Shown one piece after another: positions 2 to 63,935 of a stretch of DNA of 64,000 bases. The notes below the pieces were generated by a model. It was not told where the DNA came from, did no database searches, and saw only the letters and a list, made by a program, of their open reading frames with translations. Source of the stretch: a virus; the IMG/VR virus record IMGVR_UViG_3300028388_005362, positions 29,880 to 93,879 of that record. The stretch is one strand, 5' to 3'. A program made the translations under genes and the position numbers. The first letter of the stretch is position 1. Each line of letters starts with the position of its first letter.

Positions 2-304
2 ACCTTTCCTTCGCAGGGAGTTGCCACACCTTCTCTCTATGCCAAGGGCGGCAGTTTGATCCCTCCTGCTTACATCGCAGAAGGCGAAGAGGTGGTAGAG
101 CATTCACCCATGGACGTATTGATGACCGATGCTAACGGAGAAACCAACCGTCTGTCCAGCAACATGACCAAGCTGGAAGGCGACAAGCACAGTGCTCCCT
201 CAGGCGGAATAGGAGTGAACCAATCCGGAGGAGGCTTTGTGTTCTCCGACCAGATAGTGGTTCCCCAGGATTTGGTTCAACGCTTCAAAAATGCCCGACT
301 CTAA
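2..304 (+). CDS. C-terminal end of a structural-operon protein (cut by window start)
   Basis: The reading frame is open from the first bases of the window to a TAA at 302-304, so the gene begins upstream and about 100 residues are visible. The visible part is rich in Gly and Ser. It contains a segment with EGEEVVEH, then LEGDKHSAPSGGIGV, which resembles the K-H-x-x-GGI(P)V segments common in structural-module proteins of Bacteroidota phages; that likeness is from memory and weak. Its stop overlaps the start of the next gene by one base, so the two are probably translated together. I do not recognise the family. A virion component is inferred from position only. Confidence 0.7.
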   Translation, partial: TFPSQGVATPSLYAKGGSLIPPAYIAEGEEVVEHSPMDVLMTDANGETNRLSSNMTKLEGDKHSAPSGGIGVNQSGGGFVFSDQIVVPQDLVQRFKNARL

Positions 305-1212
305 TGAAAGAAAAGACATTTGCACAGCTGGCTGAAGAGCTGGCAAAGAAACGTGAAAAATATGAGGTTTTGGCAGACTCGCCAAGCCCCTTCGAACGTA
401 ATACTGCTGAGCGGATGCTCAAGCGCACAGACCGGGTCAGCAACATGCTCAAGGATGAGCAGGTACGACTGGCTCCTGCTCCAGAGACTGAGGAAGTTCC
501 TGTTATGGCACCTGGAGGCTTTCTTGCACCTGCGGGCGCACGTCAGGCGGCAAGTACTGCTGCAGCTAATGCAGGTGGTGGTAGTTTCCTGAGTGGGCTG
601 ATGAGTGGTATTCAAAATAACCTTCCCTTACTTTCAGATCTGGGTGGTAGCCTGCTTGATGCTGGCATACGCCAGGTGGGGACAAACAGTATGCAGGCTC
701 CGCCCAGTCCTTCTTTGATTCCACGAACAACCATCGACACTTCGGTGGACTACTCCCCCCAACTTCGTGCGGTACGGGATGCCCGTACCCTGCAGATGAG
801 AAGTGCTGACCGTAACCTGAGGGATTCACAGGCCGCTGAAGCCTTCAAGAATAAAGCCTTCTCGGATTCACTCAAGGAGTCTTCTGATATTCAGGGCAAG
901 TCCAACTTCGAGCGAGCTATCCTGAAGAGGACACAGGCCCAGGTTGACCAACGTACCAACGAGCAGAATGCCGGCATAGTCAATAACTTCAAGATGATGG
1001 ACAATGCTTTCCAGAACAATCGCACTGCATCGACAGTGAATAACTGGAGCGGAGCGTTGACCAATTTCCGTATGTCTCAGCGTGACCGTATGGCAAACGC
1101 AATGGATATGCTCAAGGCAGAGATCTATTCCCGCCAGTTTGGAGACTCCGGAATATGGCAACGAAACATTCAGGACATCATTGACCAATTTGCTAACAAC
1201 AATTCACGATGA
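304..1212 (+). CDS. Probable internal virion protein, 302 aa
   Basis: ATG at 304 overlaps the stop of the preceding gene, and the TGA overlaps the next ATG (ATGA at 1209-1212), which indicates one tightly coupled operon. The N-terminal 60 residues are highly charged and helical. A Gly/Ala/Ser-rich stretch with possible amphipathic character follows at about residues 75-125. The C-terminal half is rich in Asn, Gln and Arg, with repeated N-x-R and Q-R patterns typical of small proteins next to the giant genes of crAss-like phages. No catalytic motif is visible. A cargo or ejection role is inferred from the position just before two very large proteins. Confidence 0.75.
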   Translation: MKEKTFAQLAEELAKKREKYEVLADSPSPFERNTAERMLKRTDRVSNMLKDEQVRLAPAPETEEVPVMAPGGFLAPAGARQAASTAAANAGGGSFLSGLMSGIQNNLPLLSDLGGSLLDAGIRQVGTNSMQAPPSPSLIPRTTIDTSVDYSPQLRAVRDARTLQMRSADRNLRDSQAAEAFKNKAFSDSLKESSDIQGKSNFERAILKRTQAQVDQRTNEQNAGIVNNFKMMDNAFQNNRTASTVNNWSGALTNFRMSQRDRMANAMDMLKAEIYSRQFGDSGIWQRNIQDIIDQFANNNSR

Positions 1213-3305: not shown

Positions 3306-3306
3306 C

Positions 3307-9300: not shown

Positions 9301-12300
9301 CGTCCATGGACCACATCTCTGGAACCTTTGCGCAAGAAAGGAAGCTCTTCACGTGAAGGCCGTGAGCTGTACAACATCTCTGCCGCTGAGCACGAACTCT
9401 TCAAGATGGGTATGCTGATGACCGACGTGAGTGATGAGAGCGGAAACAACAAACGTATCATTAACGTCACATATCCGACCAATTCGGATAAGACCACACA
9501 GATCGGATTCCAGATAGAAGCTGCTGATCTGCAGTTGGATCGTGAGGGTAACCTGGACTCCGACTCCCTTGAGTTGTTATACGAGGCGTTGGTTGCCCCG
9601 GAAATACAGCGGGTTCGTCAGGCAAGACAGGGCGGAATCGATGCAAACAACAAGGCGTACTCCAGCGGAGCCAGGTGGTTCATGCTGATGCCTGAGATAA
9701 ACAATATTGAAGGAATCTTCTACGAGGACGGGCGTTTGAACGAGGACATAGAGGGGGAGATGAAGCAGAAGATCATAGAGGTACTCCAAAGCTATGTCAA
9801 GCAGTTAGCGGAAAAGAAAGTATCCGACTGGAACGACATGGGTATAATCACCAAAAGCTCTGAGCTGGATAAGCGTTACCGCGATCACCTCAGTGCCGTA
9901 GATGAGAATAAGCAGCTTCAGGGAGCAGCCACCGATATGGTAGCCCAATACCTGGTAGCCAATGCCGAAATATTCAAGATGTTCATCGGTGACCCGGCCC
10001 AGTTCTATAAGACCTCTGTTTACAAAGATGTCAAAAAGAGACTGGTAGCTGAAGGCGTGGTTACACAACAGCAGGCCGCTGATATGAGCAACCGGGAAGT
10101 GGAAGAGCACTTCACCTCCGATGACATCATTCAGATCGCTGAAGATACTTTCCTCAATGTAGGTAAGCGGTTGGCGGGTGATATTGCTCCGGGACAGGAG
10201 CTGGCAGGAACCGACCGTCAGTACCACCCCATCAAGACAACCAAGCGCAGGTTTGGCAAGAGCAAGACCCGTAAGTTCTCCCGTGCCAACGATACGGGAA
10301 AACAATACAAGACTGTGGTACTCCAAGACTTTAAAGGAACGTCCACAGCCATGAAGCAACTCAAAGAGCTGTTCAAGGATGACCCCAAGGTAGCCGCCCA
10401 GTACGGCGGATTCGAGTCCACTGATGCACAGGAGTATACTACATGGGAAGAGCACCTTAACATGATGCTCTGGACAGGTAAGTTATCCGAGGAAGAGTAT
10501 ACCAATTTCTACGATAAACTCTCCCAGGGAGAAGACCTGGGCAAGAAGGACCTCAAGAAGGTACTCCAGCCCATGAAGCCGGTATATGTCTACAATACCG
10601 AAGACAAATCCGGAACATACGACCGCCGTGTGTATGTCAAAAGCTCCTCCTTCCCATTGATTCCTCAGCTGGTACGGGGATTGGAATTGGAGAAGCTGGC
10701 TAAAGCCATGCAGACACAAGGCATTCAACGCGCTGCATTTGCTACGGCGGTCAAGGTGGGTGCCCCTGCTAAGCTCGCCCAGGTGTTCAATACCGACGGT
10801 ACGATAAAAGATGATTTGGATTTTACTGATTCCCAGTTGACTCTGGAGCGTGCTGGACTTCGTATCCAGCAGCAGATTCCTTACGATGGTTCCAAAGCCT
10901 CCATCAACCGTGTATCTCAGGCGATGAAGAACTTCATGGTGAACATGATGGATGTGGAAGGATTCAAGGTCAAGTGGCATAACGACGGCAAGCCCATTAA
11001 CGGTCGCGAACTTCACTCTTTGTTCCTGGAGAACTACGAGAAGCTGTTCGAGATGAGCAAGGAAGAGCTGTTGGAAGAACTGCAGGATAGCGATGGTAGT
11101 TTCTCCCAGGATAAGATCATCAAACTGTTGCGAAGAGAAGCTATTGAGCGTGACTACCCTATGAGTGAGGTAGAGATGACCGAGTACGAAGACTTCCTTC
11201 GCATGATGCCTTATCTGCCCTCTGCCGATAGATTTGAGGCCCTTTTGAACTCCATTATAACCAATCGCATTGTCAAGCAGAAAATGCCTGGTAAATCGTA
11301 TGTATTGGGTGCTCAGGAAGGCTTTAAGACTTTGGATGAGTTGGACAATGATACCCGTGCCGGTATAACATTCACTCCCGCTTTTGATGGGGAGTTGAAG
11401 AGCAACCAGGTATTGATTCCATGGAAATTCAAGACCCCCGACGGTAAACTGATCAACATGCGTCAGTTCGTGGGCAAGGACGGCAAGATTGACATGGACA
11501 GGCTCAGTCCTGAGGTACTGAAAATATTTGGTATGCGTATTCCAAACCAGGGACCTATGTCACAACGGTCACTGGAAATCGCCGGGTTCCTGCCCAAGGC
11601 TTCCGGAGACCTTATCATTGCTCCTCGTGACCTTGTGGTACAAATGGGTAGTGACTTTGATGTGGATAAGCTCTACACTTACATGTACAACGTAGAGGTG
11701 GTTGGAAGCAAGGAACATCCCCAGCTACTCAAGTTCGTATACAGTGAAGGTAAGCACAACAAGCACAAAAAGTACAAATTTCATAAGAAAATAGATACTG
11801 ACACAGAGCGTGAGATGACCGAGGTTGAAACCATCCGGGAGCTTACCCGAATGGAACACCAGAACAAGGTCATCGACATCATGCACGCTGTTCATGAGAA
11901 CCCTGACCGCTCCGTACAAAAGCAGATCCACACCCCGTTAGGATTCTGGCATTTGCCTGAGGTAGCCCAGAAGGTTACAAAGGCCCGCCGTGCCCGTATG
12001 CAAGGAGGAGATTTGTTCACCGGACTCTCTGATGCCTACCAGCGTCAGAAGTACATCAACGCTACTGCAGGTAAGTCTGGAACAGGAGTATTCGCTAAGG
12101 ATTCTGCCTTCAATGCCACCATCCAGGGGGTGGAAAAGCCCATGAATCTGAGAGGTAAAGGCAAGAGACCATACACGGTCACTTTCGGAAACCGTAACAG
12201 CGGAAAACAGGGACTCAATAGCCCCATGGCACTGGATGGCAAGACTTACAAGAGTGATGTCATCTCCGGATACCTGTCTGCGGCTGTGGATAACGAGAAG

Positions 12301-18200: not shown

Positions 18201-19034
18201 AAGTACGATGAGAATGGTAATCTCAAAGAAGGCGAGGAAGTCGACGAGAAGGCATTCATTGACACCAAACTCCGCATCGACAAACTCAACAAGATCTCCC
18301 ACGGTAATTACGACCCTGACCTGACATTGTCGGTCAAGCGTAAGTTTTTGGGAAGAGCTTTCTCTCAGTTCCGTACCTGGGCCTTTATGGGATTTGCCAA
18401 CCGTTTTCAGGCAGGCTTTTATGATAACCAGTTGGGATATGAGAGAAAGGGAAGATACCGCTCTTATAGCGCACTTGCCCAACAAATAGGCAAGGTGATG
18501 AAACAGGAGAGCGGGTATAGGGCAGCAGCCTTTGGTGCCAAAGAACTGTTGCGTGCAGCTACCTTCGGGGTATATAACCCGGAAAGCGGTATGGTAGAAG
18601 GACTCAGCGAGGTGGATCAAGCCAATCTTCGAAAGAACCTGATGGAGCTTTATCTCTATCTGGCGTTGGCAATCCTGGTGAGGGCATTCTCAGCCATGGC
18701 AGACACAGACGATGACAAAGAGGCGACATGGAAGTATAGTACTTTCTTCACCATCAATATCCTTGCCCGTCTGCAGACTGATATATTGTTCTACACGAAT
18801 CCGTCGGAATTTGAACGATTGCAGAGAAACGCTCTGGCTGTATTCTCTTTGGTGGTAGACAGTCAGAAGGCTCTGGATTCCACATATAATTGGATGGTCG
18901 GGGGCGACGACATTCTCCAAAGGGGGCCTAATAAAGGGGAATCAAGGATGCTTCGTGACTGGTCTAAATTGATTCCCATGTGGAATCAGAAGTATCGCAT
19001 GGAGGCAGCGTACTCGATGATATTCGACCGTTAA
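15237..19034 (+). CDS. Large structural or ejected protein, about 1265 aa
   Basis: I start at ATG 15237, two bases after the stop of the giant gene. A TTG at 15228 is possible but less likely. The product is charged and helical, with long Glu/Lys/Arg-rich segments, and has one hydrophobic stretch near the C-terminus (LYLYLALAILVRAF, starting around residue 1139) that could cross or dip into a membrane. The last 80 residues are aromatic-rich and end in a compact YSMIFDR tail. No enzyme motif was recognised. As the last gene of the structural operon and next to the RNA-polymerase-like protein it is probably a co-packaged or channel-forming protein. It ends four bases inside the converging Lrp-like gene. 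Confidence 0.8.
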   Translation: MGKANCQIFPTAPNGKDSNLFKDVLESTGSREAATYAYGYARSEEFRYKMGDWLYKNPHNPYKGTLDQNGEPIMADLTEVLITKDFEMPQTQDDRFKPLHKVRELEKRDLYKQLGEFKRKLKETEKDVDRVKYRQLIQRTEQRIDALDMEMEDMLKKSSLEEIEQYARQDLDRAWDILQKDEITPGEMYLVGHIISLWQKAGDFSEDDHLFFDQAELEARREGLKEITDKFLEWKDEADHMYTNYLLPLQRNMVESSVKETFGENASSGLDNSRKDKSWAVLNFLDITETSDTLLQAMGAWVKTAQFKAHQESEAVMAEIDQLIKESGVKDFDLFMQTFSNEDSRLTGNLVFRWTQAYFDESKRQKARLHKARNQAMLIEDPKERGRKIAKIHQNYFRQMAKRSITFDLRKLFPDADMYNETSFTEEERRNHEAELRLHLGDKGYERFIEDAEELLEDYKKDREAYMLELEAEFQDEMSAGDTSNFDVHLRVWEMSNSPYWHAQFQEEGYPSKGIQGMYAKPTSRYVKTVPRRFDTDGNDTGYYDKKYEQIEADEKKLKLYDYIFDTLKQSREYLPNHKISFMQVNTLPMIEKTVLETFARDGMLSGAAGMWESLKKATRSDALSDTEYNDIDPLTGEAGMTHQLAFVSNPTKRVEEYVERKEIEWTGKNGKPESDAELNELLLLKEEWRREATDKLANQKSHDLGMVTKAFAAMALSFKHKALIEPQMTLSYKLMNNSLEQVTNDAGSQMVDKDGNPMKKKGLENMRKMLKDFMETSYYGYPVRIKQGQTKKRVLTPQEKKVRKEIESSMEQLKAMHEKGDLTDAEYNGKQQKLQDQLDKLGGVFTASQFGDMMLKYVQILGLGWNVKAAIANLGFGFISNIIEAADGRSFTIGEYFKAMSLVKSSVLKNMSFNQIETKNAKKIRNMMDKLDVLKDSRYELYKATVGGNKLKEKLNWLDPYNPNARTEYINQASIMVAMLMHDGLWDKYDENGNLKEGEEVDEKAFIDTKLRIDKLNKISHGNYDPDLTLSVKRKFLGRAFSQFRTWAFMGFANRFQAGFYDNQLGYERKGRYRSYSALAQQIGKVMKQESGYRAAAFGAKELLRAATFGVYNPESGMVEGLSEVDQANLRKNLMELYLYLALAILVRAFSAMADTDDDKEATWKYSTFFTINILARLQTDILFYTNPSEFERLQRNALAVFSLVVDSQKALDSTYNWMVGGDDILQRGPNKGESRMLRDWSKLIPMWNQKYRMEAAYSMIFDR

Positions 19035-19522
19035 AGGTCTTTGACCATACTCATACTTACCTGGGTCTGCCATTCACGGGAGACCCTTTTTGCTACCCTT
19101 CTTTTGATGTCAATAACAGTGAGGTCCTTGACCAGACCTTTAAGGACGTTGTTGGCTTGTTCAATACTTGAGAACATCCAGTGCATCCACAAAGTTACCA
19201 TGCCCGTCATTTCGTGGGGCTCGCTCTGGGATATATGCACACAGAGGTTTTCATCCTCTGCACGGGCAGTCAGGGCCTGGATGGTAGCTTCAGAGGCCAT
19301 TATTTCCACCATTTCCCTGTGTTCTGTTCTGAAAAAGTCGGTATTCACCTTGATGGTGTACCCGGAGATGACTCCGTTGGTGATCAGGTTCTGCACCCTT
19401 ACCAATGTAGGAGGAGGGCTAAGTCCTATCTTCACCGCCAAGTTCCGATTTGTGATACTGGCATCCTGTTCCAGGATTTTAAGTATCTCGACGTCTTTCT
19501 CGTCGATGACTTTCTTTTTCAT
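19031..19522 (-). CDS. Lrp/AsnC-family transcription regulator
   Basis: The N-terminus reads DEKDVEILKILEQDASITNRNLAVKIGLSPPPTLVRVQ in pieces typical of the AsnC winged helix-turn-helix: L-D-x-x-D-x-x-I-L, then N-R-x-L-A-x-x-I-G-L-S-x-x-x-x-x-x-R-V. The rest (about residues 60-150) fits the alpha-beta RAM effector-binding domain, with GVISGYTIKVN at the hinge. Length (163 aa) matches the family. Members bind DNA as dimers or octamers and often sense amino acids. It is the last gene of the minus block and converges with the structural operon, so it could regulate the phage or remodel host metabolism. Family call is firm, target unknown. Confidence 0.88.
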   Translation of the reverse strand: MKKKVIDEKDVEILKILEQDASITNRNLAVKIGLSPPPTLVRVQNLITNGVISGYTIKVNTDFFRTEHREMVEIMASEATIQALTARAEDENLCVHISQSEPHEMTGMVTLWMHWMFSSIEQANNVLKGLVKDLTVIDIKRRVAKRVSREWQTQVSMSMVKDL

Positions 19523-19635
19523 AGCTAAAGTTAATAACTGATAATTGTTGTTTGTTGGTTAAAGTAACGAAATAAAATAATTTATAACAAGCAAAAGAGG
19601 ACATTAAATCCCCTTTTGCAAAATTAAGTAAAAAC

Positions 19636-22405: not shown

Positions 22406-22431
22406 CAAATTTAAACAGAATTATATTCTGT
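22406..22431 (-). promoter_or_regulatory. Promoter with a perfect 17-bp operator-like palindrome
   Basis: On the minus strand TAAATTTG (22413-22406) fits the Bacteroidota -7 box TAnnTTTG, 39 bases before the nuclease start codon. Directly upstream, 22415-22431 is ACAGAAT-TAT-ATTCTGT, a perfect inverted repeat with a 3-bp centre. It is the best copy of the operator-like family found at five other places here, but lies in the spacer upstream of the -7 box, where a bound protein would be expected to repress. Confidence 0.6.
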
Positions 22432-22436
22432 GAAAG

Positions 22437-22502
22437 GGTAGGAAGGAGAATACTCATAAATGAGTATTTTTCACAAAATTTGTGTTAATCTCCTTCCTAT
22501 CC
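22437..22502 (-). terminator. Branched inverted repeat downstream of rIIB-like gene
   Basis: An outer stem pairs 22437-22449 with 22489-22501. Inside it are two perfect hairpins: 22449-22468 (9-bp stem, 2-base loop) and 22472-22484 (CACAAA/TTTGTG). The whole could fold as a three-way junction. It follows the rIIB-like stop in the minus direction and lies just before the nuclease promoter. It probably ends or stabilises the rII transcript, but lacks a classical T-run immediately after the outer stem. Confidence 0.5.
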
Positions 22503-27962: not shown

Positions 27963-28652
27963 TTAGAAGCTCAGTTCTTCGGTAGTACTGGCGTCCATGG
28001 TTGCACTATCAGCAGCTTCTTCAGCCGTCTCGTTCTTCGGAGCCTCAGCGGCATCGAAGTTCATGGGAGTGCTGGCTGCAGGAGAACCATCACCATCAGG
28101 CTTTGGCTTCTTGACCACGCGGTCATATTTAGGATCAAGTACTAAACGTGTAGGAACACCCTCTTTCATCAATTCAACAAACGGGCTGATAGCACGCTTG
28201 GGGAAGGTGGTGTAGTCCTTATTGTTGAGGATGAGCTTGATGCGAAGAGGAATACCTTGGTAATGATTTCCAGCCAGGGCAATGTATTGCTCTGCCAACA
28301 CTTTGAAGTTGGGAGCTTTCAATACCAACTGCTCAGCTGGGATGAAAGGCTCCAAAATATGCTTCAGACGTTCTCCCATGGCATTCATCTCACTCTTGAT
28401 GAACTCTTTTGGATCTTTCTGGAATACAGTCTTGGCGAGCTTTTCCCACTGCTTGAAATCCGGTGAAAACTCCTTGTGTACAAAAGTAGAACCTGCAGGG
28501 TCAGTAAAGGTGATGGCGATAACCATCTTGTCTGAGCCTTGTTTCATGGGTTCGTACTTGATTGAGGTAATTTGCACATTCTCGTTGATACCAGCGTTCA
28601 TGAATTTACCAGCGCCGGTGGACTCGTCAAAACCGAAATGATTTTCTGACAT
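27963..28652 (-). CDS. Single-stranded DNA-binding protein candidate
   Basis: 229 aa. The first about 170 residues are mixed alpha/beta with many Lys and aromatic residues, compatible with an OB fold. The last about 50 are low-complexity, Ala/Glu/Asp/Thr-rich, and end in TTEELSF. A disordered acidic tail ending in Phe is the hallmark of SSB proteins, which recruit replication partners through it. It sits between primase and a Sak4-type ATPase. No strong sequence match to classical SSB was recognised; the call rests on tail and context. A promoter with an operator-like site lies just upstream. Confidence 0.6.
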   Translation of the reverse strand: MSENHFGFDESTGAGKFMNAGINENVQITSIKYEPMKQGSDKMVIAITFTDPAGSTFVHKEFSPDFKQWEKLAKTVFQKDPKEFIKSEMNAMGERLKHILEPFIPAEQLVLKAPNFKVLAEQYIALAGNHYQGIPLRIKLILNNKDYTTFPKRAISPFVELMKEGVPTRLVLDPKYDRVVKKPKPDGDGSPAASTPMNFDAAEAPKNETAEEAADSATMDASTTEELSF

Positions 28653-28680: not shown

Positions 28681-28723
28681 CAAATTTACGAATTATTACT
28701 CTTTATACAGTATATAATTATGC
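28681..28723 (-). promoter_or_regulatory. Promoter of the SSB-primase-rII operon with an upstream operator-like site
   Basis: On the minus strand TAAATTTG (28688-28681) matches the -7 box. Eighteen bases upstream, 28707-28723 reads ACAGTAT-ATA-ATTATGC on the plus strand, a degenerate copy of the operator-like family with the same 18-bp spacing to the -7 box as at 48.9 and 63.3 kb. No good second site is present downstream of the box. Confidence 0.5.
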
Positions 28724-43846: not shown

Positions 43847-46800
43847 CTATAAGACCACTACTCGAACAAGTTTTCCGTCTAACCAGAGGTCTTCCCAGCC
43901 GGTGAAACGTACTCCGTTGTGAGGGTAGAAGCGTGCCTCTGTCCCATGAATTCTCCAAGTACCTTTTGGGGTATTAACCTCTTTGTACTCAGCGGTGAAT
44001 GGAACATTGGTAACTGTGAAATACTCCAGTTTGTGGAAACGTCTGAGGTATTTGACAATACGTACATCCCCTTGAGGGAATTCGTTGTCGTTTGCCAAAG
44101 AAGAAGTCTCATCCAAACCAGTCACTTCACGAGCTGCGCTACGAATTCTGTACTCAGTCTCTACGTTTACATAATACTGATGTACACTATAGAAACCATG
44201 GGTGAGTGTCAGGTCATCGTACTTAGCCAGAGGATCGAACACATACATAGGCTCGATGGTCACCCAACCTTTGTCATAGGTCAGACGATAGTTATCCTTC
44301 TCAACGGTATATTGGTTTCCTGAAACAGAAGTATCAAGGTCACCAACCGCCTTATGGAATGTTCCGTACATATAATCGGCAAGACCGAACCATGCGATTG
44401 CAGGCATACGGGCCATCCCTTGGGCAAGCGTCCAATAGTTGATAGGATTATGCCATTGTGGGACACTATTGTTCGGCTCAGCATCGTAGTCAACCATCAC
44501 CTCCAAAGCAGTCAATCCTGCGTGTGAAGGATAAACGTTACCAAGACCGTCCATTGGAGCCAGATAAACTGTGGACAGAATGTAGTCTTTCTCGTCTCCT
44601 GAACCTCCGGTGATGTAGTAAGCGTATCCTTGAATGTCATGTAACCAGAACCCATTTCCCAGATCGATGCTATCCAAAACTGTTTGGGTAGATGGATTAT
44701 ATAGCCTAAGCCTTGGAAGAGCCTCAAGAGTGCTATAATTAGCAGCAATGTCTCCAGCATCGAAAGTATATACACCGTTGTGCTCATTTGCCTGGGTCAG
44801 AAGAATAGTAGTATTCTCTGACTCGGGGTTAGAGTTACCTGCATACGATATTCCGTTATAGCACTCTATTCTGTAAGTCACATTGTAACGGATTCCGAAG
44901 TCATCTTCCAGTTGAGCATAGACTGCGATTGGCCCCCCACTCATGAGCGTATCTCCACTCTGTGGAATGGCTTGCCACACAATCTTGTTGGTTCCTGACC
45001 TCACTTTCTTTTCAACCTTGAGGTCGTACAGACCAGCAGGACTATTTACTTCTCGGGTATAAACACTCACCTTAGACTTATTGGTCAAATCCCAAATGGA
45101 CCAATTTGCCATGGTCATCGTCGTATAGTCCGCCCACTCAATGAATGGAATATCAGCGATATTCATCTCTCCAGAAAAGTGCATATCTCCCTCAAATATA
45201 GGAGCAGCGGTCAGGTCATAGTTGTACTCGATCTCAGGATAAACTTCTTGGCAACTCAATGGACGTTCATCAAAATACATCATCAATGAACCAGTATTGG
45301 AGTAATTGCCTTCAGTATCGAACACGCGTATAGCCAAAGAAACTGTTTCTCCGACAAGATCGTTATCCTTTGCGATTCGAATCCACTGGTTAATCTCAGA
45401 ATCATGTTTACTCCAAATAACTGCTGTGTCACCTGGTTGCCATACCCATTGGCGCTTTTCCTGGTCTCCGGGTGTAGTAATATCAACATCAATACCAGCA
45501 ATTGGATTATCTCCTGGAGTTATATAAGGGCTCAGGTCAATCCACCACTCATTTCCAGCGGAGCTTGCACAGATGGTCTCGTAGATATTCTGCGTTATTT
45601 CCGGATCACCCTCATTGTTATCATCAATTGGAGTTGGACAATCACAAGTAGGCTCAGTGCCGTCAAAATACAGGGTATATTGAACATGGTTAGAGAAATC
45701 ATACTCGGTATCATATACCCTCAGCCAGATGGTAATCGAAGAACCTTCCAGGCTAACTCCCTGGTCCTTGATGAATTTGAGCTCTGTCTCTCCCTCTACA
45801 TTATTGTAACTGAAGAATGTTCCTTTACCAAATACATGTAGGCTATTTTCGATAGCTTCTGTACCAGTATCCAGGTCAATTCCAGCAATAGTCTGTCCAT
45901 TGGTAGTGATGTGAGAATCAAGGTCTGTCAAATACGCACAGGTATACCAGTCAATATTATAACATACCGTGTCTGTAATTGGCGTTTGAACACTCGGAGA
46001 ATCTGCAGGATTGATAGTGTCCACCAGACATTCACAAGTGGTTTGTGAAGGTTCAAAATACAACGTGATTGTAGAAGTAGTACTGGTATCCCCATCTGTA
46101 TCAAACACTTGAACATCGAAAGTTATTGAATCTCCGTCCAACAGCCCATGTTCTTGTGGGTAGATACGAATAAGTAAGGGGTTGTCTGCCCCGTGTTCTG
46201 TCCATAGGAGAGCCTCCGGTGTTTCAGTGGCTTCTTGGAAACCCGCCTGAGAAACATTCATATCTATACCCTCAACAATCTGGTCGTTATTATCCACGTA
46301 TGGGCTCATATCGAATAAGTATCCCAGACAATCCTGAGCCACCGTCCCACACAAAGTATCATTGATAGGTGAGGTAACAAGTGGAGGACAGCTGATACAA
46401 ATAGTGTCCATTGTACAGGCGCAAGTGGAGTCAGTACCATCGAAGAAAACAGTCAGAGTCTTGTAATCACTGGTGTCTCCCTCAGTATCAAAGGCTACCA
46501 TACCCAATATCAGTTCTTGTCCCTCTACACTTGCATTTTCTTTCTCGTAGAAATCGATGACAAATGGAGAAGCAGAATCGTGGTCTGTGTAATATGTACC
46601 ATAGAACCAGTTGGTGTAGGTGTCTTGGAAACCAGCTATGTCCGTATCAATGTCCAAACCAACGACTGTTTGACCGTTAGCGTCAATATAATCGCTAATA
46701 TCAAACCTCCAGCCAGGACAATCAGCTGCTTTGTTGTAACAAGCAGTCACATATACATCAGACAGTATTGGTGGGTCCAGTGGGTCAGGAGTTGAATCTC

Positions 46801-48844
46801 CGTAAGTACAAGAACAGTTGGTCAATGTATCGTTGAAGTATACCTGCAACGTAACAAAATCACTGCCGTTGCCTTCTTCATCCACCACACGGGCTTGTAT
46901 TTCCAAAGTATCTCCAGCGATGCTGTCAAAATATCCAGGGTTTGGAGTTACCCAGAACTTGGTTAAAGTATCTTGCTCGTAGTCTGTCTCAAAGGTTACA
47001 TACTCCAGAACATTTATACTGTCCATGTCCACTCCCAGGTCAAGGTCTATTCCTTGCAAGGTCTGACCATTGAGGTTAACATACGATGCAAGATCAAAAC
47101 TCCATCCAGCACAAGTCGATGTATCGATGTCATAACAGGCTTCAAACAATACAGGGTCTTGAGTAATTTCCGGAGCTGCTTGTTTGACTATATCACCCAG
47201 GCAAATACACTCGCTGTCCCCATTGGGGTCAAAGTATACTGAGGCAGTATAATAGTTTCCTACATCACCGTCCATATCGTAAGGATACATAGCAAGATAG
47301 AGTGTGTCCCCTGAAGGATTATACCCAGAGTCCGCTTCGAAAATCACTTCCTTGTTGTACACACTTCCCGGACGAGCATGCCAGGTTCCTTGTGCATAAG
47401 CATAGAAGGTGTTCTGGTTTCCGGAATCGGCAGTATTTAGATCTAACCCATCGAGCTCTTGACCATTCTCATCGATAAAATCTGACAGGTCAACCACCCA
47501 AGTATCACACCCTGAAGGTTGGTTGGCAGAAACAACCGCAAGAGAAGTTCCAGACATTTGTGGAGCATTCGACACCACTCTGCTGCCAAAGTCAGATACT
47601 TCAACAGTAATCGTAGCAGAATCAGTCCAATTACCATACTGGTCCTTATAGCGATACTGGAATGTGTGTTGAGTACCTACTGAAGGCATTGTTTGTCCAT
47701 CACGTAAGAACACCCAGAAACTTCCATTACCATAGAAATAGGAGCCTCCAGAAGAAGTCTTGTAGTAATGACTTTTTACTTTGTAAGGCCCAAAATCAAA
47801 TGAATCATCTACTGCCGCTGTGGCGGGGTTTAAGTCAAGCTCTATATCATGGTATCCCCCGTTACTTCCCGCATTATCGTCAGCGCCAGCGGTAACCCTC
47901 AGATTCTTGAGGATAAAATTGTGTCCGACATGGTACTGCTGTGACTTGTCGAAGTAAACCAAATCATCAAAGATCTTGACCGGAGAAGAACATAAAGAAT
48001 CTCCAGAAGGACTCTCTACAATATTCACGTTCAAAGCCGTGAAGTGGTCGTTATTGATGTGGTCATAGTTTCCTGCATAGTAAACTTTGTCCCAACCAGT
48101 AAAGTTAGTGTCCTGTGAGTCAAGAAAGAATGTGTAGGAATGACCGTAAGGCTCTCCTTCTCCGACTTGCCCCTCAGAAGGCCAGGTAATTACACCTGAG
48201 GCGTCTGTTGGTATAACCCCAGCAGGCTCAGCATTATAATTGTATTCCTGATAGTTGAAATTAAGCGACCTATACCCAGCTCTATCGCCCCACAATGGGT
48301 TTTCTATGGCGTCTTGAGTATAACGTATATCTACCTCTTTTGGCCCTGCTGGCTGAGCCATAAATTGGGAAGTACGGCTAATATCCGTTGTGCCCCCTGG
48401 TTGATAATACCTATACGTGAACTCATTGATCGTTGTTCTTGGAATACCGTGAGATTTGAAATAAAATTCACAGTATCCAGAACCAATAGAGTCCACCCAT
48501 ATCTGAAGATAGTCTTCAGCGTTATGGTAAATGGTCAAGGTGTCCACCCAAGCTCCTGTGTGAGTTTTGAATTTCACAGAATCTATGGTGCCTGTGATAT
48601 TATCAGATAGAGCCCGATTCCATCCTTGCGGGTTATCGATGTTGCCATCAGTGTCATAAAGGGAACCTACGCTTTCCCAGTAGATACCTGACTGAGAGAA
48701 AGCTCCCAGGGAAAGCAACATAACCATTGCTGTTGCAACAGTTCTGCGAAAATTTAGACTCTCAATAAATGAGGTCAGGGCATACAAGACGCCCGCTCCA
48801 GCCATGCCAAGCATGAGTAGAGGAAACAATACAAGTTTGTTCAT
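43847..48844 (-). CDS. Exported 1665-aa protein with six tandem beta-rich modules
   Basis: N-terminus has two hydrophobic stretches; the second (TVATAMVMLLSLGAFSQ) looks like a signal peptide with cleavage after Ser-Gln. Residues about 424-1206 hold six modules of about 130 aa, each with a Cys, then W-x-(F/V)-D-(L/I)-(S/A)-x-(Y/F)-(I/V), N-G-Q-x-(I/L)-x-G-(I/L)-D-(L/I/V)-(D/N), (V/A)-x-D-(T/E)-E-G-x-x-S and a final Y-F-(D/E)... C-x-C. The Cys pairs fit extracellular disulphides. The C-terminal 450 residues are beta-rich without repeats. Host-dependent secretion of so large a phage protein is unusual; surface adhesion, receptor blocking or a tail part are options. It has its own promoter with paired operator-like sites. 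Confidence 0.85.
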   Translation of the reverse strand: MNKLVLFPLLMLGMAGAGVLYALTSFIESLNFRRTVATAMVMLLSLGAFSQSGIYWESVGSLYDTDGNIDNPQGWNRALSDNITGTIDSVKFKTHTGAWVDTLTIYHNAEDYLQIWVDSIGSGYCEFYFKSHGIPRTTINEFTYRYYQPGGTTDISRTSQFMAQPAGPKEVDIRYTQDAIENPLWGDRAGYRSLNFNYQEYNYNAEPAGVIPTDASGVITWPSEGQVGEGEPYGHSYTFFLDSQDTNFTGWDKVYYAGNYDHINNDHFTALNVNIVESPSGDSLCSSPVKIFDDLVYFDKSQQYHVGHNFILKNLRVTAGADDNAGSNGGYHDIELDLNPATAAVDDSFDFGPYKVKSHYYKTSSGGSYFYGNGSFWVFLRDGQTMPSVGTQHTFQYRYKDQYGNWTDSATITVEVSDFGSRVVSNAPQMSGTSLAVVSANQPSGCDTWVVDLSDFIDENGQELDGLDLNTADSGNQNTFYAYAQGTWHARPGSVYNKEVIFEADSGYNPSGDTLYLAMYPYDMDGDVGNYYTASVYFDPNGDSECICLGDIVKQAAPEITQDPVLFEACYDIDTSTCAGWSFDLASYVNLNGQTLQGIDLDLGVDMDSINVLEYVTFETDYEQDTLTKFWVTPNPGYFDSIAGDTLEIQARVVDEEGNGSDFVTLQVYFNDTLTNCSCTYGDSTPDPLDPPILSDVYVTACYNKAADCPGWRFDISDYIDANGQTVVGLDIDTDIAGFQDTYTNWFYGTYYTDHDSASPFVIDFYEKENASVEGQELILGMVAFDTEGDTSDYKTLTVFFDGTDSTCACTMDTICISCPPLVTSPINDTLCGTVAQDCLGYLFDMSPYVDNNDQIVEGIDMNVSQAGFQEATETPEALLWTEHGADNPLLIRIYPQEHGLLDGDSITFDVQVFDTDGDTSTTSTITLYFEPSQTTCECLVDTINPADSPSVQTPITDTVCYNIDWYTCAYLTDLDSHITTNGQTIAGIDLDTGTEAIENSLHVFGKGTFFSYNNVEGETELKFIKDQGVSLEGSSITIWLRVYDTEYDFSNHVQYTLYFDGTEPTCDCPTPIDDNNEGDPEITQNIYETICASSAGNEWWIDLSPYITPGDNPIAGIDVDITTPGDQEKRQWVWQPGDTAVIWSKHDSEINQWIRIAKDNDLVGETVSLAIRVFDTEGNYSNTGSLMMYFDERPLSCQEVYPEIEYNYDLTAAPIFEGDMHFSGEMNIADIPFIEWADYTTMTMANWSIWDLTNKSKVSVYTREVNSPAGLYDLKVEKKVRSGTNKIVWQAIPQSGDTLMSGGPIAVYAQLEDDFGIRYNVTYRIECYNGISYAGNSNPESENTTILLTQANEHNGVYTFDAGDIAANYSTLEALPRLRLYNPSTQTVLDSIDLGNGFWLHDIQGYAYYITGGSGDEKDYILSTVYLAPMDGLGNVYPSHAGLTALEVMVDYDAEPNNSVPQWHNPINYWTLAQGMARMPAIAWFGLADYMYGTFHKAVGDLDTSVSGNQYTVEKDNYRLTYDKGWVTIEPMYVFDPLAKYDDLTLTHGFYSVHQYYVNVETEYRIRSAAREVTGLDETSSLANDNEFPQGDVRIVKYLRRFHKLEYFTVTNVPFTAEYKEVNTPKGTWRIHGTEARFYPHNGVRFTGWEDLWLDGKLVRVVVL

Positions 48845-48881: not shown

Positions 48882-48949
48882 GCAGAATCTTATTCTGTCA
48901 GAACTGCAAATATACAGCTTTTTTGCCTGTATACAGTATATTATTCTGT
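48882..48949 (-). promoter_or_regulatory. Promoter of the exported giant with paired operator-like sites
   Basis: On the minus strand TATATTTG (48914-48907) is a perfect Bacteroidota -7 box. Sites 48933-48949 (ACAGTAT-ATT-ATTCTGT) upstream and 48882-48898 (GCAGAAT-CTT-ATTCTGT) downstream lie 18 and 8 bp from the box, 34 bp apart. The start codon is 38 bases further on. The same spacing occurs at 63262-63329. Confidence 0.7.
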
Positions 48950-49388: not shown

Positions 49389-49412
49389 GCAGTATTATAT
49401 TTCGTATTTTTG
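49389..49412 (+). promoter_or_regulatory. Promoter of the single plus-strand gene 49453-49713
   Basis: TATTTTTG at 49405-49412 fits the -7 box TAnnTTTG. Directly upstream GCAGTAT-TAT-ATTTCGT (49389-49405) resembles the operator-like family but matches only 10 of 14 arm positions. Start codon is about 40 bases downstream. Confidence 0.45.
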
Positions 49413-49452
49413 CAAGAATCATTTACTAATAACCCTTAAACATCATTTAATT

Positions 49453-49713
49453 ATGTCAGACGTATCATTAGGCGCTTACCTTCAAGATTGTGGAGTCAAA
49501 GGACTCGTTGAAAAGCAGTACATCAGTACTACTACTCCAATCAATACTTACATGGCGCAGCCTGCAGAATCAGCGTTTGCCAACGGAGCCTTAGGCTCAC
49601 AGTTCGTTGCTGACCCTGATGCGGGCAATCAGACAGAAGGTTGGTGGGACGATATGTGGGATTACTGGGGTCGCAAGGTAAGCGACTGGACGCTCGAAAA
49701 TATCGAACGATAG
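49453..49713 (+). CDS. Small acidic protein on its own transcript, 86 aa
   Basis: I start at ATG 49453 (MSDVSLGAYLQDCG); the frame is open further up but that part covers the promoter. Rich in Ala, Gly, Asn and acidic residues and ends with an aromatic, acidic tail (GWWDDMWDYWGRKVSDW). It lies alone on the plus strand with its own promoter and strong terminator, in the middle of minus-strand genes, so it is probably expressed at another time. Function unknown. Confidence 0.7.
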   Translation: MSDVSLGAYLQDCGVKGLVEKQYISTTTPINTYMAQPAESAFANGALGSQFVADPDAGNQTEGWWDDMWDYWGRKVSDWTLENIER

Positions 49714-53074: not shown

Positions 53075-53320
53075 AAACCAAATTAATCCACTAACCAATT
53101 TCTCACATGGATGAGAAATGGGTCAACTTATATGGTAAAATGCTTATATTCGCATGGCATTCTGCTTTTGGGAAAAGGGGCAGATCATTTGAAATATTAG
53201 CATTGTATAGAAACAAGATTTCAATGAACTTCGTCAAACGGTATTTTGTTAGGTGTTGACGAAGCAAATATAATACTTTTTGTTTTTATACAAAACAATA
53301 TTCTGTATAAAAAGGAGGAA
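53075..53320. other. Non-coding stretch before the PAS gene
   Basis: Contains a hairpin ATTTCTCA...TGAGAAAT at 53098-53119. Further right is a promoter-like TACTTTTTG at 53274-53282. Operator-like sites lie at 53238-53254 (weak, ACGGTAT-TTT-GTTAGGT) and 53290-53306 (ACAAAAC-AAT-ATTCTGT), 35 bp apart, close to the 34 bp seen elsewhere. No convincing gene. Confidence 0.45.
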
Positions 53321-54698: not shown

Positions 54699-55568
54699 TT
54701 AGGCTTCAGCTGGGCGCTTTTCACACATAGCCTCTTGCCATACTTGTTCAGCTAAATATCGACCGGCAGTAACATCGGTGAGAATATGTCCCACCCATCT
54801 CTCAGGTCGTTCGTCCTGAAGGTCATCGTATGAAATGCTTTTGGCACTCATATTAGCCTCAATGACGTCCAGGTATTTATACTTGGTGAACAGGTCTTTG
54901 AAGAGTTTGAGGTTCTTATCGAACTCCAAACGTTTCCTCGCTGCAGCTTCAGCTTCTTTCTTGACCTTGGCAGGTTCCTCGATGAGGTTAGGGAAGAGCT
55001 CCAAAAACTTCTGGTATCTTTCATTGAGGTCCCCCCAGAACGGCTCACCTTCTGGGGTATTCTCCCAGAGGAAAGCAGAATCAAGCAAATGCTTATGCTT
55101 ATAGTCTTTATAACGCTCTACAAACTTCTCCAGGGACTCATGAGCTGCAGTGATAGCGGCTTTAAAAGGGTCAATCGCCCCTGCAACCTGCATGAACAGC
55201 ACGATGGGATAGAGTATTGATGGGCCGTGAAACCCGTATTGTGCGTGAACCTCAACTTCACCTGGAAGATCTTCTTTTACAGGTTCGGCCTTGTTTTCGC
55301 TTAGGACTTTGTCAACAAGGGCATGCCATTTGTCATGAATTTGGGTCCAGTACTCAAGGCCCTCATCGGTGTCCGACCAATCGAAAGCATGAATTATTAC
55401 TTTCTCAGGTTTATGGGCAAGAACACCATCCAAATTCTTGTAAACTACCCATACATTGTCTTTTGTTGAAGCTCTGCCTAAATAAGCCATACGCTCATAA
55501 AAAGTGGTTACACCATTCTCCTTCAAGAATGTGTGGAATTGTCCTACTGTGATTTTCTTCTTTTCCAT
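54699..55568 (-). CDS. Unknown protein, 289 aa
   Basis: Helical, acidic protein. VIIHAFDWSDTDEGLEYWTQIHDKW near residue 60 and a long helix AAITAAHESLEKFVERYKDYK near 140. The frame starts ATG 55568, which lies inside an operator-like site. No function recognised. It has its own paired-site promoter (55565-55632). Confidence 0.7.
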   Translation of the reverse strand: MEKKKITVGQFHTFLKENGVTTFYERMAYLGRASTKDNVWVVYKNLDGVLAHKPEKVIIHAFDWSDTDEGLEYWTQIHDKWHALVDKVLSENKAEPVKEDLPGEVEVHAQYGFHGPSILYPIVLFMQVAGAIDPFKAAITAAHESLEKFVERYKDYKHKHLLDSAFLWENTPEGEPFWGDLNERYQKFLELFPNLIEEPAKVKKEAEAAARKRLEFDKNLKLFKDLFTKYKYLDVIEANMSAKSISYDDLQDERPERWVGHILTDVTAGRYLAEQVWQEAMCEKRPAEA

Positions 55569-55632
55569 TTGATTATTCTGTTTAATGGATTAAATATCGG
55601 TTATTTGACTGTTATACGGTATTATATACTGC
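55565..55632 (-). promoter_or_regulatory. Promoter with paired operator-like sites, gene 54699-55568
   Basis: Site 55616-55632 (plus: ACGGTAT-TAT-ATACTGC) and site 55565-55581 (plus: CCATTTG-ATT-ATTCTGT) are 34 bp apart, as at 48.9 and 63.3 kb. Between them the minus strand has GATATTTA (55598-55591), a 6/8 match to the -7 box. The second site covers the start codon, as at 63313-63329. Confidence 0.6.
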
Positions 55633-59931: not shown

Positions 59932-60411
59932 ATGCAAACTTACATTGGAACCAAGATCATTGAAGCACGTCCTATGAACAGGGGAGATTACAACCTTTAC
60001 AGGGGCTGGGATATACCCGAGGACGAAAATCCTGACGATACAGGATACCTCGTTCGATACCCCGATGGTTATGAAAGCTGGTCTCCCAGCAAGCAATTCG
60101 AAGCTGCTTACAAGGTGATGGATTCGGATATGGACTTCGGTACCGCACTTCTGGGCCTCAAGCAGGGCAAGAAGATTGCCCGACAGGGGTGGAATGGAAA
60201 AGGCATGTTCTTATTCCTTCTGCCTGCAGGAACCATTCCCAAATCGGCTATCCATGACCCCATGCTCAAAAGCATACTCTCTGACAATGGCAAGGACCAT
60301 TTTGAAGCCTTAGGCTCTATTCGTATGAAAACTGCCGATGACAAGATCCTTACCGGCTGGCTGGCTTCTCAGACAGATATGTTGGCAGAGGATTGGGTAT
60401 TTGTAGATTAA
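59932..60411 (+). CDS. Tad2-like (DUF2829) anti-Thoeris candidate with an N-terminal domain
   Basis: 159 aa. From about residue 68: DFGTALLGLKQGKKIARQGWNGKGM and LTGWLASQTDMLAEDWVFVD match the DUF2829 pattern (F-G-x-A-L-x-x-L-K-x-G-K-x-(V/I)-A-R-x-G-W-N-G-K-G-M ... W-L-A-S-Q-T-D-M-L-A-x-D-W). Tad2 proteins sequester the gcADPR signal of the Thoeris defence system. The first 60 residues are another small domain (YNLYRGWDIPEDEN, YLVRYPDGYESWSPS) often seen in phages next to DUF2829. Fusion of both is the form seen here. Terminator follows at once. Confidence 0.85.
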   Translation: MQTYIGTKIIEARPMNRGDYNLYRGWDIPEDENPDDTGYLVRYPDGYESWSPSKQFEAAYKVMDSDMDFGTALLGLKQGKKIARQGWNGKGMFLFLLPAGTIPKSAIHDPMLKSILSDNGKDHFEALGSIRMKTADDKILTGWLASQTDMLAEDWVFVD

Positions 60412-60479: not shown

Positions 60480-60791
60480 GAGGTATCGTTGGAGGTATCA
60501 CAAAAAACAGCCCGCTAAAAAAGCGGGCTATTTTGTTGATTATCAAGTGATTCGCCTGGGGCTCGAACCCAGGACCCACGCCTTAAAAGGGCGTTGCTCT
60601 ACGCCCTGCTTAATAACTTCCCTACAGATTAAAAACCACCTCTATTTCTTTAATAACGAGCGTTTGCGATGATTTGCGTCTCATTCTGCAAACATAACAA
60701 TATTTGTTATATTGGCAAAAATGGGCTACTTTTACATCGTCTGAGGTATCATTGGAGGTATCTTTTGAAGAGACCCCAAAAAGATACCTCC
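60480..60791. other. attP site: tRNA-Lys 3' fragment with flanking arm-type repeats
   Basis: 60548-60602 is the reverse complement of the 3' part of tRNA-Lys: end of the D stem (GTAGAGC), anticodon arm ACGCC-CTTTTAA-GGCGT with anticodon TTT, T arm CTGGG-TTCGAGC-CCCAG, and acceptor strand GCGAATC with A73. The 5' acceptor strand is absent, so it is not a complete gene, but an attachment core. GAGGTATCGTTGGAGGTATC (60480-60499) and GAGGTATCATTGGAGGTATC (60743-60762) flank it, with an inverted GATACCTCC at 60783-60791: probable arm-type integrase sites. The integrase starts 12 bases on. Confidence 0.75.
60509..60529 (+). terminator. Rho-independent terminator after Tad2-like gene
   Basis: AGCCCGCT (60509-60516) with AGCGGGCT (60522-60529), then ATTTTG; an A-run precedes it, so it may act in both directions. 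It isolates the attP core from transcription from the left. Confidence 0.8.
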
Positions 60792-60802: not shown

Positions 60803-62020
60803 ATGAAGCACAAAATAAAACTCATCCACCCGTCTATCAAGAGGTTACGCACTGCCGAGGGATACCCCATCATGTTGGAGGTATACCTGGGTCGTGGAGA
60901 CCGGATTCGACTCAAATCGGGGTATCATTTTGACAAAGAGGCAGTCTCAGATACTGGATTGGTACGGGGAAGATCTTCCGCTGCAGTGCAGACAAACAAG
61001 CAACTGAAGCGAATGCTGGACAAAGCCCACCAGATTGATGAGATGCTGGGGGCTGAATACACCCGCAAGCAGTTCATGGATGCCTGGAGGGGGATAGACA
61101 AGGAGGATGACCCCAGTGATTTGTTTAAGTACTTTGAAATCGTGATTCCGCAAAAGCCAAAGGGCAGGACAAGGAACTACTTTGTCACCACCTTAAAGCA
61201 CCTGAAGGCATTTCACCCAGATCCCATACCTATATATAAGGTAGACAAGGACTTTGTGGAAGGATACAGGAAATTTTTGGAGGAATGGCTGGCACCCAAT
61301 ACCGTCAGAACGCATCTATCTAAGCTCAGAAACGTGCTCAATCTGGCGGTGGGAGACAAGAATATGGACCTGAAGGGGTATGTACCTCCTTTTATGACCA
61401 ACCGCTTACTCCCTGCTCCCGTGCGCAAGACAAGGGACCGCTCGTTGAATCCCCGGCTGATTCAGCGATTGTTCGAGCTTCCGACAGCCAAAGGCAGACG
61501 CCACTACAAGTCCCAGCGGCTGTATCATTTGTCCTATCTTTGTTATGGGGCTAACCTGATTGACCTGGCATTGCTCAAGCAGTCATCCATCGTTGGGGGA
61601 ACCCTGGAGTTTGACCGCAGCAAAACGGGTCGTCAGATTCCACCGGTGGTGATAACCTCCGAGATGGAGCAGATCTTTGAGGATCTGAAGCCCTACTGCA
61701 AGGAAGATTACCTGGTCCACATCCTCAAGGATGAGTTCAACTGGCACAACGTCAGAACACGGGTTGACCGCTGGGACAGACACATCAACGACTGGTTGAG
61801 CTCAGCCTGTGATGTACTGGGAATACAGCCCAAGGTGACCTTCTATTCGGCCCGGCATAGTTTTGCCCAACATTTGCGCTACGCGGATAAGAGCGATTCG
61901 TTCATTGCCAGGTTCTTGGCGCACTCCTCAGAGAGTACGGTCAAGGGATACCTGGTCAACCATGATGTAAAACAATTAATTGAAGTTCAGGATAGCCTGC
62001 TTCAGCAACGTAAACCATAA
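60803..62020 (+). CDS. int: Tyrosine recombinase, phage integrase
   Basis: 405 aa from ATG 60803; the frame continues upstream, but that part covers the arm-type repeats. Core-binding domain at about 100-210, catalytic domain after 225. Catalytic set: Lys274 (SKTGRQ), Arg351 and His352 (YSARHS), His374 (FLAHSS), nucleophile Tyr383 (KGYL). The first catalytic arginine, expected in the C-x-G motif, is Tyr248 (CYGAN). In the CTnDOT integrase the same residue is Ser, so activity may persist. The adjacent attP fits tRNA-Lys integration. Followed 11 bases later by a related gene. Confidence 0.88.
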   Translation: MKHKIKLIHPSIKRLRTAEGYPIMLEVYLGRGDRIRLKSGYHFDKEAVSDTGLVRGRSSAAVQTNKQLKRMLDKAHQIDEMLGAEYTRKQFMDAWRGIDKEDDPSDLFKYFEIVIPQKPKGRTRNYFVTTLKHLKAFHPDPIPIYKVDKDFVEGYRKFLEEWLAPNTVRTHLSKLRNVLNLAVGDKNMDLKGYVPPFMTNRLLPAPVRKTRDRSLNPRLIQRLFELPTAKGRRHYKSQRLYHLSYLCYGANLIDLALLKQSSIVGGTLEFDRSKTGRQIPPVVITSEMEQIFEDLKPYCKEDYLVHILKDEFNWHNVRTRVDRWDRHINDWLSSACDVLGIQPKVTFYSARHSFAQHLRYADKSDSFIARFLAHSSESTVKGYLVNHDVKQLIEVQDSLLQQRKP

Positions 62021-63129: not shown

Positions 63130-63134
63130 ACAAC

Positions 63135-63161
63135 AAACCCCCGGCATACCACCGGGGGTTT
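63135..63161 (+). terminator. Rho-independent terminator after recombinase pair
   Basis: AAACCCCCGG (63135-63144) with CCGGGGGTTT (63152-63161), then TTATTT. Strong stem, 7-base loop. Confidence 0.88.
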
Positions 63162-63244
63162 TTATTTACCCAACAACACCGGGTAAATGTTTCACCACCG
63201 CAAATCTACACAAAATTTACAACTGTTTGTGGATAAAAGGTCCC

Positions 63245-63252
63245 TATATTTG
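63245..63252 (+). promoter_or_regulatory. Second possible promoter, upstream of the paired-site promoter
   Basis: TATATTTG at 63245-63252 is a full -7 box, with TTTG at 63226-63229 as a possible -33 element, 15 bases apart (closer than usual). It lies 10 bases before the first operator-like site. Confidence 0.4.
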
Positions 63253-63261
63253 GCGACCTAA

Positions 63262-63329
63262 CCATAATAATATTCTGTATAACGTATAGTATTCCTTATA
63301 TTTGTTCTCATAACAGAATATAATTATGG
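63262..63329 (+). promoter_or_regulatory. Promoter with two operator-like sites in mirror arrangement
   Basis: TATATTTG (63297-63304) is a -7 box. 63262-63278 is CCATAAT-AAT-ATTCTGT and 63313-63329 is ACAGAAT-ATA-ATTATGG; the two are inverted copies of each other, 34 bp apart, with the box 18 bp after the first and 8 bp before the second. The second covers the start codon of the next gene. Confidence 0.7.
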
Positions 63330-63628
63330 ATATAGTCAAACCGGGAGTGGTATTCGAGCTGAAGAATTTGGAGGCTGATTCTGTCCAGACCATTCGGTTC
63401 GTAGAGAAAGTAGCTGGCAAGTTAATGCCCGGAACGACCAACGAAGAAGTCATCCAAATGATGATCGAACGCTTCTACCACCTCCAGAAGGAGGGTCCCT
63501 CGGTGGAAAACCAGATGATTCTCATGCTTTTAAAGGACATCAGACGCACACTGGTTCGCCGACAACAGAAGAAATTCCAGAGAAAACAGCAGGCAGGACA
63601 TGAAAAAGAAGTTAAAAGTACCCTTTAG
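63326..63628 (+). CDS. Helical protein of unknown function, first gene of the right-end operon, 100 aa
   Basis: Short N-terminal strand (MDIVKPGVVFELKN), then helices with ADSVQTIRFVEKVAGK and EEVIQMMIERFYHL, and a very basic tail (RRTLVRRQQKKFQRKQQ). It could be a small DNA-binding protein and, given the operator-like site over its start codon, an autoregulator; that is speculation. Overlaps the next gene by 29 bases. Confidence 0.6.
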   Translation: MDIVKPGVVFELKNLEADSVQTIRFVEKVAGKLMPGTTNEEVIQMMIERFYHLQKEGPSVENQMILMLLKDIRRTLVRRQQKKFQRKQQAGHEKEVKSTL

Positions 63629-63935
63629 CAAACAGGAGTATATTGCCACATACGTAAAGTTGCTCAACGGGGTCTTCGATTTGACCCCCAGAGAACTGCA
63701 AGCCCTCACCATCTTCCTGCAAAAGGATTTGAAGACTCCTGCTACAACTCCCGCCCGTAAAGCCGCTCTGGAGCAAATGAAGCTCACCTCTCCGATGGCA
63801 ATCAACAATCTGGTCAAATCCCTGCGCACCAAAGGAGCTATCCTTGGAGAGCCGGGAGACTACCAATACCACCCCATACTCAGAATAGACAAGAGACCCG
63901 CACAGTTAATATACGAATTCGATGAACAAGTCTGA
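63600..63935 (+). CDS. Winged-helix-like protein, 111 aa
   Basis: FDLTPRELQALTIFLQ, then SPMAINNLVKSLRTKGAIL and YQYHPILRID: a helix-turn-helix with a wing, as in MarR/phage regulatory proteins. Starts inside the previous gene and is followed by an overlapping ATG. Function unknown. Confidence 0.6.
   Translation: MKKKLKVPFSKQEYIATYVKLLNGVFDLTPRELQALTIFLQKDLKTPATTPARKAALEQMKLTSPMAINNLVKSLRTKGAILGEPGDYQYHPILRIDKRPAQLIYEFDEQV

Follow-up and report, generated by a model that had tools for sequence, protein, structure and literature searches.

The window analysed here is a 64,000-bp stretch, positions 29880-93879 of a 93,879-bp IMG/VR virus record. Towards its end lie two 17-bp palindromes of the type ACAGAAT-N3-ATTCTGT, placed as an earlier note on this DNA had described them, with 34 bp from edge to edge, 51 bp from centre to centre and TATATTTG between them. 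Promoters of Bacteroidota have a -33/-7 architecture in which the -7 box is TAnnTTTG, and our reading of these loci as promoters rests on the match to that consensus. Upstream, a third and weaker site extends the array, together with another copy of TATATTTG. The features of the locus are as follows.

63210-63226: third, weaker site of the array, ACAAAATTTACAACTGT, lying 52 bp upstream of the 63262 site, with the second TATATTTG (63245-63252) between them
63262-63278: site 1 of the 63-kb pair, CCATAATAATATTCTGT, upstream of the -7 box and over the expected -33 region
63297-63304, plus strand: putative -7 box TATATTTG of the TAnnTTTG type, with 18 bp between it and site 1 and 8 bp between it and site 2
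63313-63329: site 2 of the 63-kb pair, ACAGAATATAATTATGG, containing the ATG of the 63326 gene and overlying the expected transcript start region
63326-63628, plus strand: target gene, 100 aa, phrog_2428, conserved in crAss-like relatives
63600-63935, plus strand: second gene of the 63326 run, 111 aa, with a LexA-like winged-helix DNA-binding domain (a weak match, just below the Pfam cut-off)

The 63326 gene heads a run of genes that crosses the record ends towards the terminase gene. The two ends have 15 identical bases in common and an open frame runs across them when they are joined; hence, the phage genome is probably circular and complete. Because its major capsid protein matches Pfam Crass_capsid (PF23898, E 1.5e-88), and terminase, portal and head PHROGs are matched elsewhere in the genome, we assign it by sequence to the crAss-like phages (Crassvirales). 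Terminases of its IMG/VR relatives are mostly 52-64% identical, with 35% for one record and 80% over one short stretch. Several giant genes are present, including a single 3975-aa open frame at 3307-15234. A terminator-like hairpin (AACCCCCGG ... CCGGGGGTTTTT) lies at 63130-63165, between the 62032 gene and the 63262 promoter.

The same arrangement had been reported to recur at 48.9 and 55.6 kb. At 48.9 kb it does so on the minus strand without any change in geometry (18 bp, TATATTTG, 8 bp); at 55.6 kb the 51-bp spacing is kept but the box is degenerate.

48933-48949: site 1 of the 48.9-kb pair, ACAGAATAATATACTGT as read on the minus strand, serving a putative minus-strand promoter
48907-48914, minus strand: putative -7 box TATATTTG, at offsets of 18 and 8 bp, identical to those of the 63-kb pair
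48882-48898: site 2 of the 48.9-kb pair
43847-48844, minus strand: target gene of the 48.9-kb pair, 1665 aa, with a hydrophobic N-terminus
55616-55632: site 1 of the 55.6-kb pair
55591-55598, minus strand: degenerate -7 box GATATTTA, 17 bp after site 1
55565-55581: site 2 of the 55.6-kb pair, weak, overlapping the ATG of the 54699-55568 gene
54699-55568, minus strand: target gene of the 55.6-kb pair, 289 aa, phrog_16354

Across the whole genome, five pairs have exactly 51 bp between their centres: 63262/63313, 48882/48933, 55565/55616, 49389/49440 and, at genome positions outside the window, 4541/4592. The last two were added by a whole-genome PWM scan; the 4541 pair, which lies ahead of the portal and capsid genes, was left out of the sites from which the PWM was built. 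Four weaker partners stand at 52-53 bp, beside 63262, 53290, 22415 and 49389. The further sites in the window are listed here.

49389-49405: site GCAGTATTATATTTCGT of a further 51-bp pair, with a weak third site 53 bp leftward (49336)
49440-49456: partner of the 49389 site, ACATCATTTAATTATGT, with no clear -7 box between the two
53290-53306: strong site, with TATATTTG (53265-53272, minus strand) 17 bp downstream on the minus strand
53238-53254: weaker partner of the 53290 site, 52 bp from it
28707-28723: strong single site ahead of a minus-strand gene at 27963-28652; TAAATTTG (28681-28688, minus strand) follows it after exactly 18 bp
22415-22431: perfect 17-bp palindrome ACAGAATTATATTCTGT between RIIB-like and exonuclease genes, with a weak partner 52 bp leftward (22363)

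An inverted repeat that could fold as a hairpin (GGGTAGGAAGGAGA ... TCTCCTTCCTATCC, 22432-22500) adjoins the perfect palindrome. Exact matches to TAnnTTTG, which occurs in this genome at 0.03% per position, follow the first site by 18 bp at 63262, 48933 (minus strand) and 28707 (minus strand), by 19 bp at genome 4541 and by 17 bp at 53290 (minus strand); the 49389 and 22415 arrays have no TAnnTTTG at the usual offset. In the three clearest pairs, site 2 begins 7-8 bp past the box and should therefore cover the transcription start, and the sites at 63313 and 55565 contain the start codon of the downstream frame.

The fixed spacing held up against shuffled sequence. Among pairs 20-89 bp apart in which both sites have PWM scores >6, all fall at 51, 52 or 53 bp. 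Lowering the PWM cut-off gives nine pairs at 51-53 bp, whereas 200 dinucleotide shuffles averaged 0.26 and never exceeded 3. The PWM was derived from the sites themselves, which makes this comparison partly circular; hence, we repeated it with a probe independent of the phage sites: the E. coli Lrp consensus AGAATWWWATTCT. Allowing ≤3 mismatches, we found four pairs at 51 bp, whereas 200 dinucleotide shuffles gave a mean of 0.045 and a maximum of 1. Single sites are only mildly enriched (53, against 32 in shuffles), and the case for the sites rests on spacing rather than on these counts. A distance of 51-53 bp, seen at multiple sites, is about five helical turns, and would place paired sites on one face of the helix, in agreement with the earlier proposal. 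A third site midway (two plus three turns) was seen only weakly, at +19, in two of the five pairs; we therefore rejected a general two-plus-three-turn array. Two other candidates were also set aside. The sites resemble the inverted repeats of an invertible promoter, but the 34 bp between them and the recurrence at many promoters argue otherwise, and N4-like hairpin promoters do not fit several of the sites, which make poor hairpins (CCATAAT/ATTCTGT pairs at 5/7).

The half-sites in the phage are those of the E. coli Lrp consensus AGAATwwwATTCT, a 13-17 bp imperfect palindrome with an AT-rich centre; the consensus is given as AGAATwwwATTCT / yAGhAwATTwTdCTr by Cui et al. (1995, 1996, as cited in PMC5554404). 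Four candidate regulators had been named, the products of the genes at 63326, 63600, 19031 and 59050. The 19031 product is our choice: it is a member of the Lrp/AsnC family, and the motif is identical with the consensus for Lrp. The other three are weighed below. The suggestion that one regulator would act at many phage promoters is supported.

19031-19522, minus strand: proposed regulator, Lrp/AsnC-family protein, 163 aa, with an HTH and a RAM-type beta-alpha-beta-beta-alpha-beta order
19567-19583: weak Lrp-like site ACGAAATAAAATAATTT, upstream of lrp

The N-terminus of the 19031 product matches AsnC-type HTH families above cut-off (PF13404, 5.4e-11; PF13412, HTH_24, 7.4e-14). A PDB sequence-profile match to E. 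coli Lrp (2gqq, 1.3e-13) covers nearly the full length, and the best NCBIfam match is Lrp (1.2e-12). No RAM family was detected by sequence in Pfam at E 0.1; the predicted secondary structure gives the RAM order (E68-76 H78-90 E94-99 E109-117 H120-130 E138-147). Confidence in the structure model is moderate (pLDDT 69); a Foldseek search with it returned members of the Lrp/AsnC superfamily, including siroheme decarboxylase AhbA/B, as all of the first 42 PDB matches, with TM-scores of about 0.4 and rmsd >10. Thus, Pfam, NCBIfam, the PDB profile, the predicted fold and the fold search all assign the product to the Lrp/AsnC proteins.

Copies of lrp outside the window genome allowed the motif to be compared with the regions upstream of them. 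A search of 18 phage records, many of which are fragments, found lrp in two: the window genome and an 85-kb genome, G006. Its position is alike in the two, with the giant-gene block on one side and the exonuclease gene on the other. A third copy (L102) is on a 17.6-kb contig, DMFR01000444.1, filed under a Prolixibacteraceae MAG; there (160-10271) the Lrp gene is convergent with a 3185-aa gene resembling the giant genes of crAss-like relatives, and the contig looks like a crAss-like phage fragment. Against composition-matched shuffles, the best motif match upstream of lrp has p 0.004 in G006, 0.045 in the window genome and 0.078 in L102. In G006, the top match genome-wide to the window-derived PWM sits directly upstream of lrp, a result that modestly and independently ties the motif to Lrp. 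Autoregulation of the window lrp through the 19567 site is possible.

We consider it likely that the sites are operators of the phage-encoded Lrp/AsnC regulator, an oligomer of which would bridge or wrap the promoter and repress the operons; we infer binding, oligomer, repression and effector. Each 17-bp site would bind one Lrp dimer. A higher oligomer, probably an octamer, would hold both sites on one face, five helical turns apart, using two of its dimers for the two specific sites and carrying the promoter between them. Promoter DNA would thereby be bent or wrapped, with the -7 box between the sites. Site 1 would cover the -33 region and site 2 the transcription start, so binding should exclude RNA polymerase. 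The targets held off together would include the packaging genes (63262), portal and capsid (4541), the 1665-aa gene, the 289-aa gene and others. By analogy with other family members, an amino-acid effector may tie phage development to host nutrition.

Site 1 may also act in the opposite direction. With the same binder, it could be an activator site or an alternative -33 element, so that the promoters are turned on. Site 1 keeps a constant distance to the -7 box, only an upstream role is well supported at 28707, and Lrp proteins are known as dual regulators; activation from site 1 is thus possible. However, the expected transcript start, and in some cases the start codon, falls under site 2, as would suit a repressor, and as a general account we regard activation as rather doubtful, its probability overlapping with that of the repressor explanation.

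The host's own Lrp/AsnC regulator might bind instead, if the phage has equipped its promoters with operators for host Lrp and so reads the nutritional state of the host. Lrp consensus sequences are alike across the family and Bacteroidota encode Lrp/AsnC proteins. However, the paired pattern with ≤3 mismatches, found at two places in the 94-kb phage, is missing from all 395 genomes of the host class searched, as expected from the earlier claim that the arrangement belongs to the phage rather than the host, and the phage has retained an lrp of its own, whose gene neighbourhood is conserved. We therefore think binding by the host protein unlikely.

A different phage DNA-binding protein is a poorer candidate still for the binder. 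The 63600 product matches LexA-type winged helices weakly and the 59050 product very weakly, and 63600 belongs to the gene run under the 63262 pair. However, homologues of the 63326 and 63600 products are present in relatives without the motif, and the motif agrees with the Lrp consensus, making it improbable that any of these three products is the binder. Chance occurrence of AT-rich palindromes would fit the mild excess of single sites but not the spacing (nine pairs against 0.26 expected, or four against 0.045 with the outside consensus), and can be neglected.

The phage Lrp thus remains our preferred binder, and several observations stand against it. The pairs are not conserved in relatives, G006 included, and the window lrp site is weak (p 0.045). 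The 49389 and 22415 arrays lack the usual box, and the structure model is of moderate confidence. Extending the search to the whole genome yielded further pairs, but none was found in the distant relatives available, G006 with its lrp included; this absence is not decisive, because only one of the 17 relatives' records has lrp and many are fragments. In five relatives we found no convincing palindrome pairs of the same geometry. The plain pair pattern was absent from the IMG/VR contigs searched, and the box-containing half-pair gave 30 loci in viral contigs, none with two palindromic sites and most belonging to one repeated sequence family. Single-protein searches with Lrp and with the 62032 protein recovered no close relatives, and two-row and three-row Lrp alignments against viral contigs recovered only G006. 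Upstream of the 63326 homologue, G004 and G006 have a different shared stretch (around ACGTTACGTTA / ATGTTACGTTA) in place of the Lrp pair.

Like lambda CI-type temperate-phage systems, the phage operators would represent one regulator with multiple 17-bp operators overlapping promoters; here, in contrast, the regulator is of the Lrp/AsnC family, its operators straddle single promoters of operons that lie far apart, and its gene is not beside the integrase. With E. coli Lrp operators they share the palindromic half-site and the AT-rich centre, and the phage protein has a homologous HTH, whereas the phage sites are five turns apart with a promoter between them, in a phage genome with Bacteroidota TAnnTTTG promoters. 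Lrp dimers bind 13-17 bp sites, form higher oligomers with the DNA-binding domains outward and wrap DNA, with neighbouring sites reported two or three turns apart (PMC2995911, PMC10201364). The archaeal Lrp-family regulators Ss-LrpB, BarR and FL11 likewise have clusters of imperfect 13-17 bp palindromes set in helical phase, with octamer or multi-dimer wrapping proposed, but two or three turns separate neighbouring sites there (PMC2995911, PMC10201364) and the regulators are cellular, often acting on metabolic genes. The phage operators, at five turns, depart from this. The five-turn spacing does not appear in those two papers and there is no consistent middle site, which counts against our explanation; we take two-or-three-turn spacing as typical of Lrp, not obligatory.

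The genome also bears on lifestyle. A tyrosine integrase gene lies at 60803-62020. Beside it, a 58-bp segment (60545-60602, minus strand) matches the 3' part of Bacteroidia tRNA-Lys(TTT) genes at up to 95%, and near-identical 20-bp repeats at 60480-60499 and 60743-60762 flank the segment like integrase arm sites. Together, integrase, tRNA-Lys segment and flanking repeats suggest that the segment is attP-like and that this crAss-like phage is temperate. Temperate lifestyle in crAss-like phages is still debated (PMC11054128). Epsilon crAss-like phages are likewise suspected to be temperate, but have BRO_N/KilAC-type repressor/anti-repressor genes with no integrase found (PMC11054128), whereas here there are Lrp-type operators, an integrase and a tRNA-Lys attP-like segment. 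More tentatively, a nutrient-sensing switch in a temperate crAss-like phage may be envisaged, in which the phage Lrp reads the amino-acid state of the host, wraps the five-turn promoters and keeps packaging, capsid and other operons closed in a lysogenic or carrier state.

Little is known yet of gene control in crAss-like phages, or of whether any of them can become quiescent and by what route; named operators at named promoters and a concrete regulator make both directly testable. A literature search found no paper joining AsnC with crAssphage, subscription journals being mostly outside its reach. If our explanation is true, a phage-encoded Lrp with a promoter-straddling five-turn geometry extends a family whose known arrays have two- or three-turn spacing. 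It also suggests that one switch could close many phage promoters together; Lrp-type regulators are often nutrient-sensing. Close to the integrase gene, at 59932-60411, the genome also encodes a Tad2-like (Thoeris anti-defence 2) protein (Pfam 5.8e-23).
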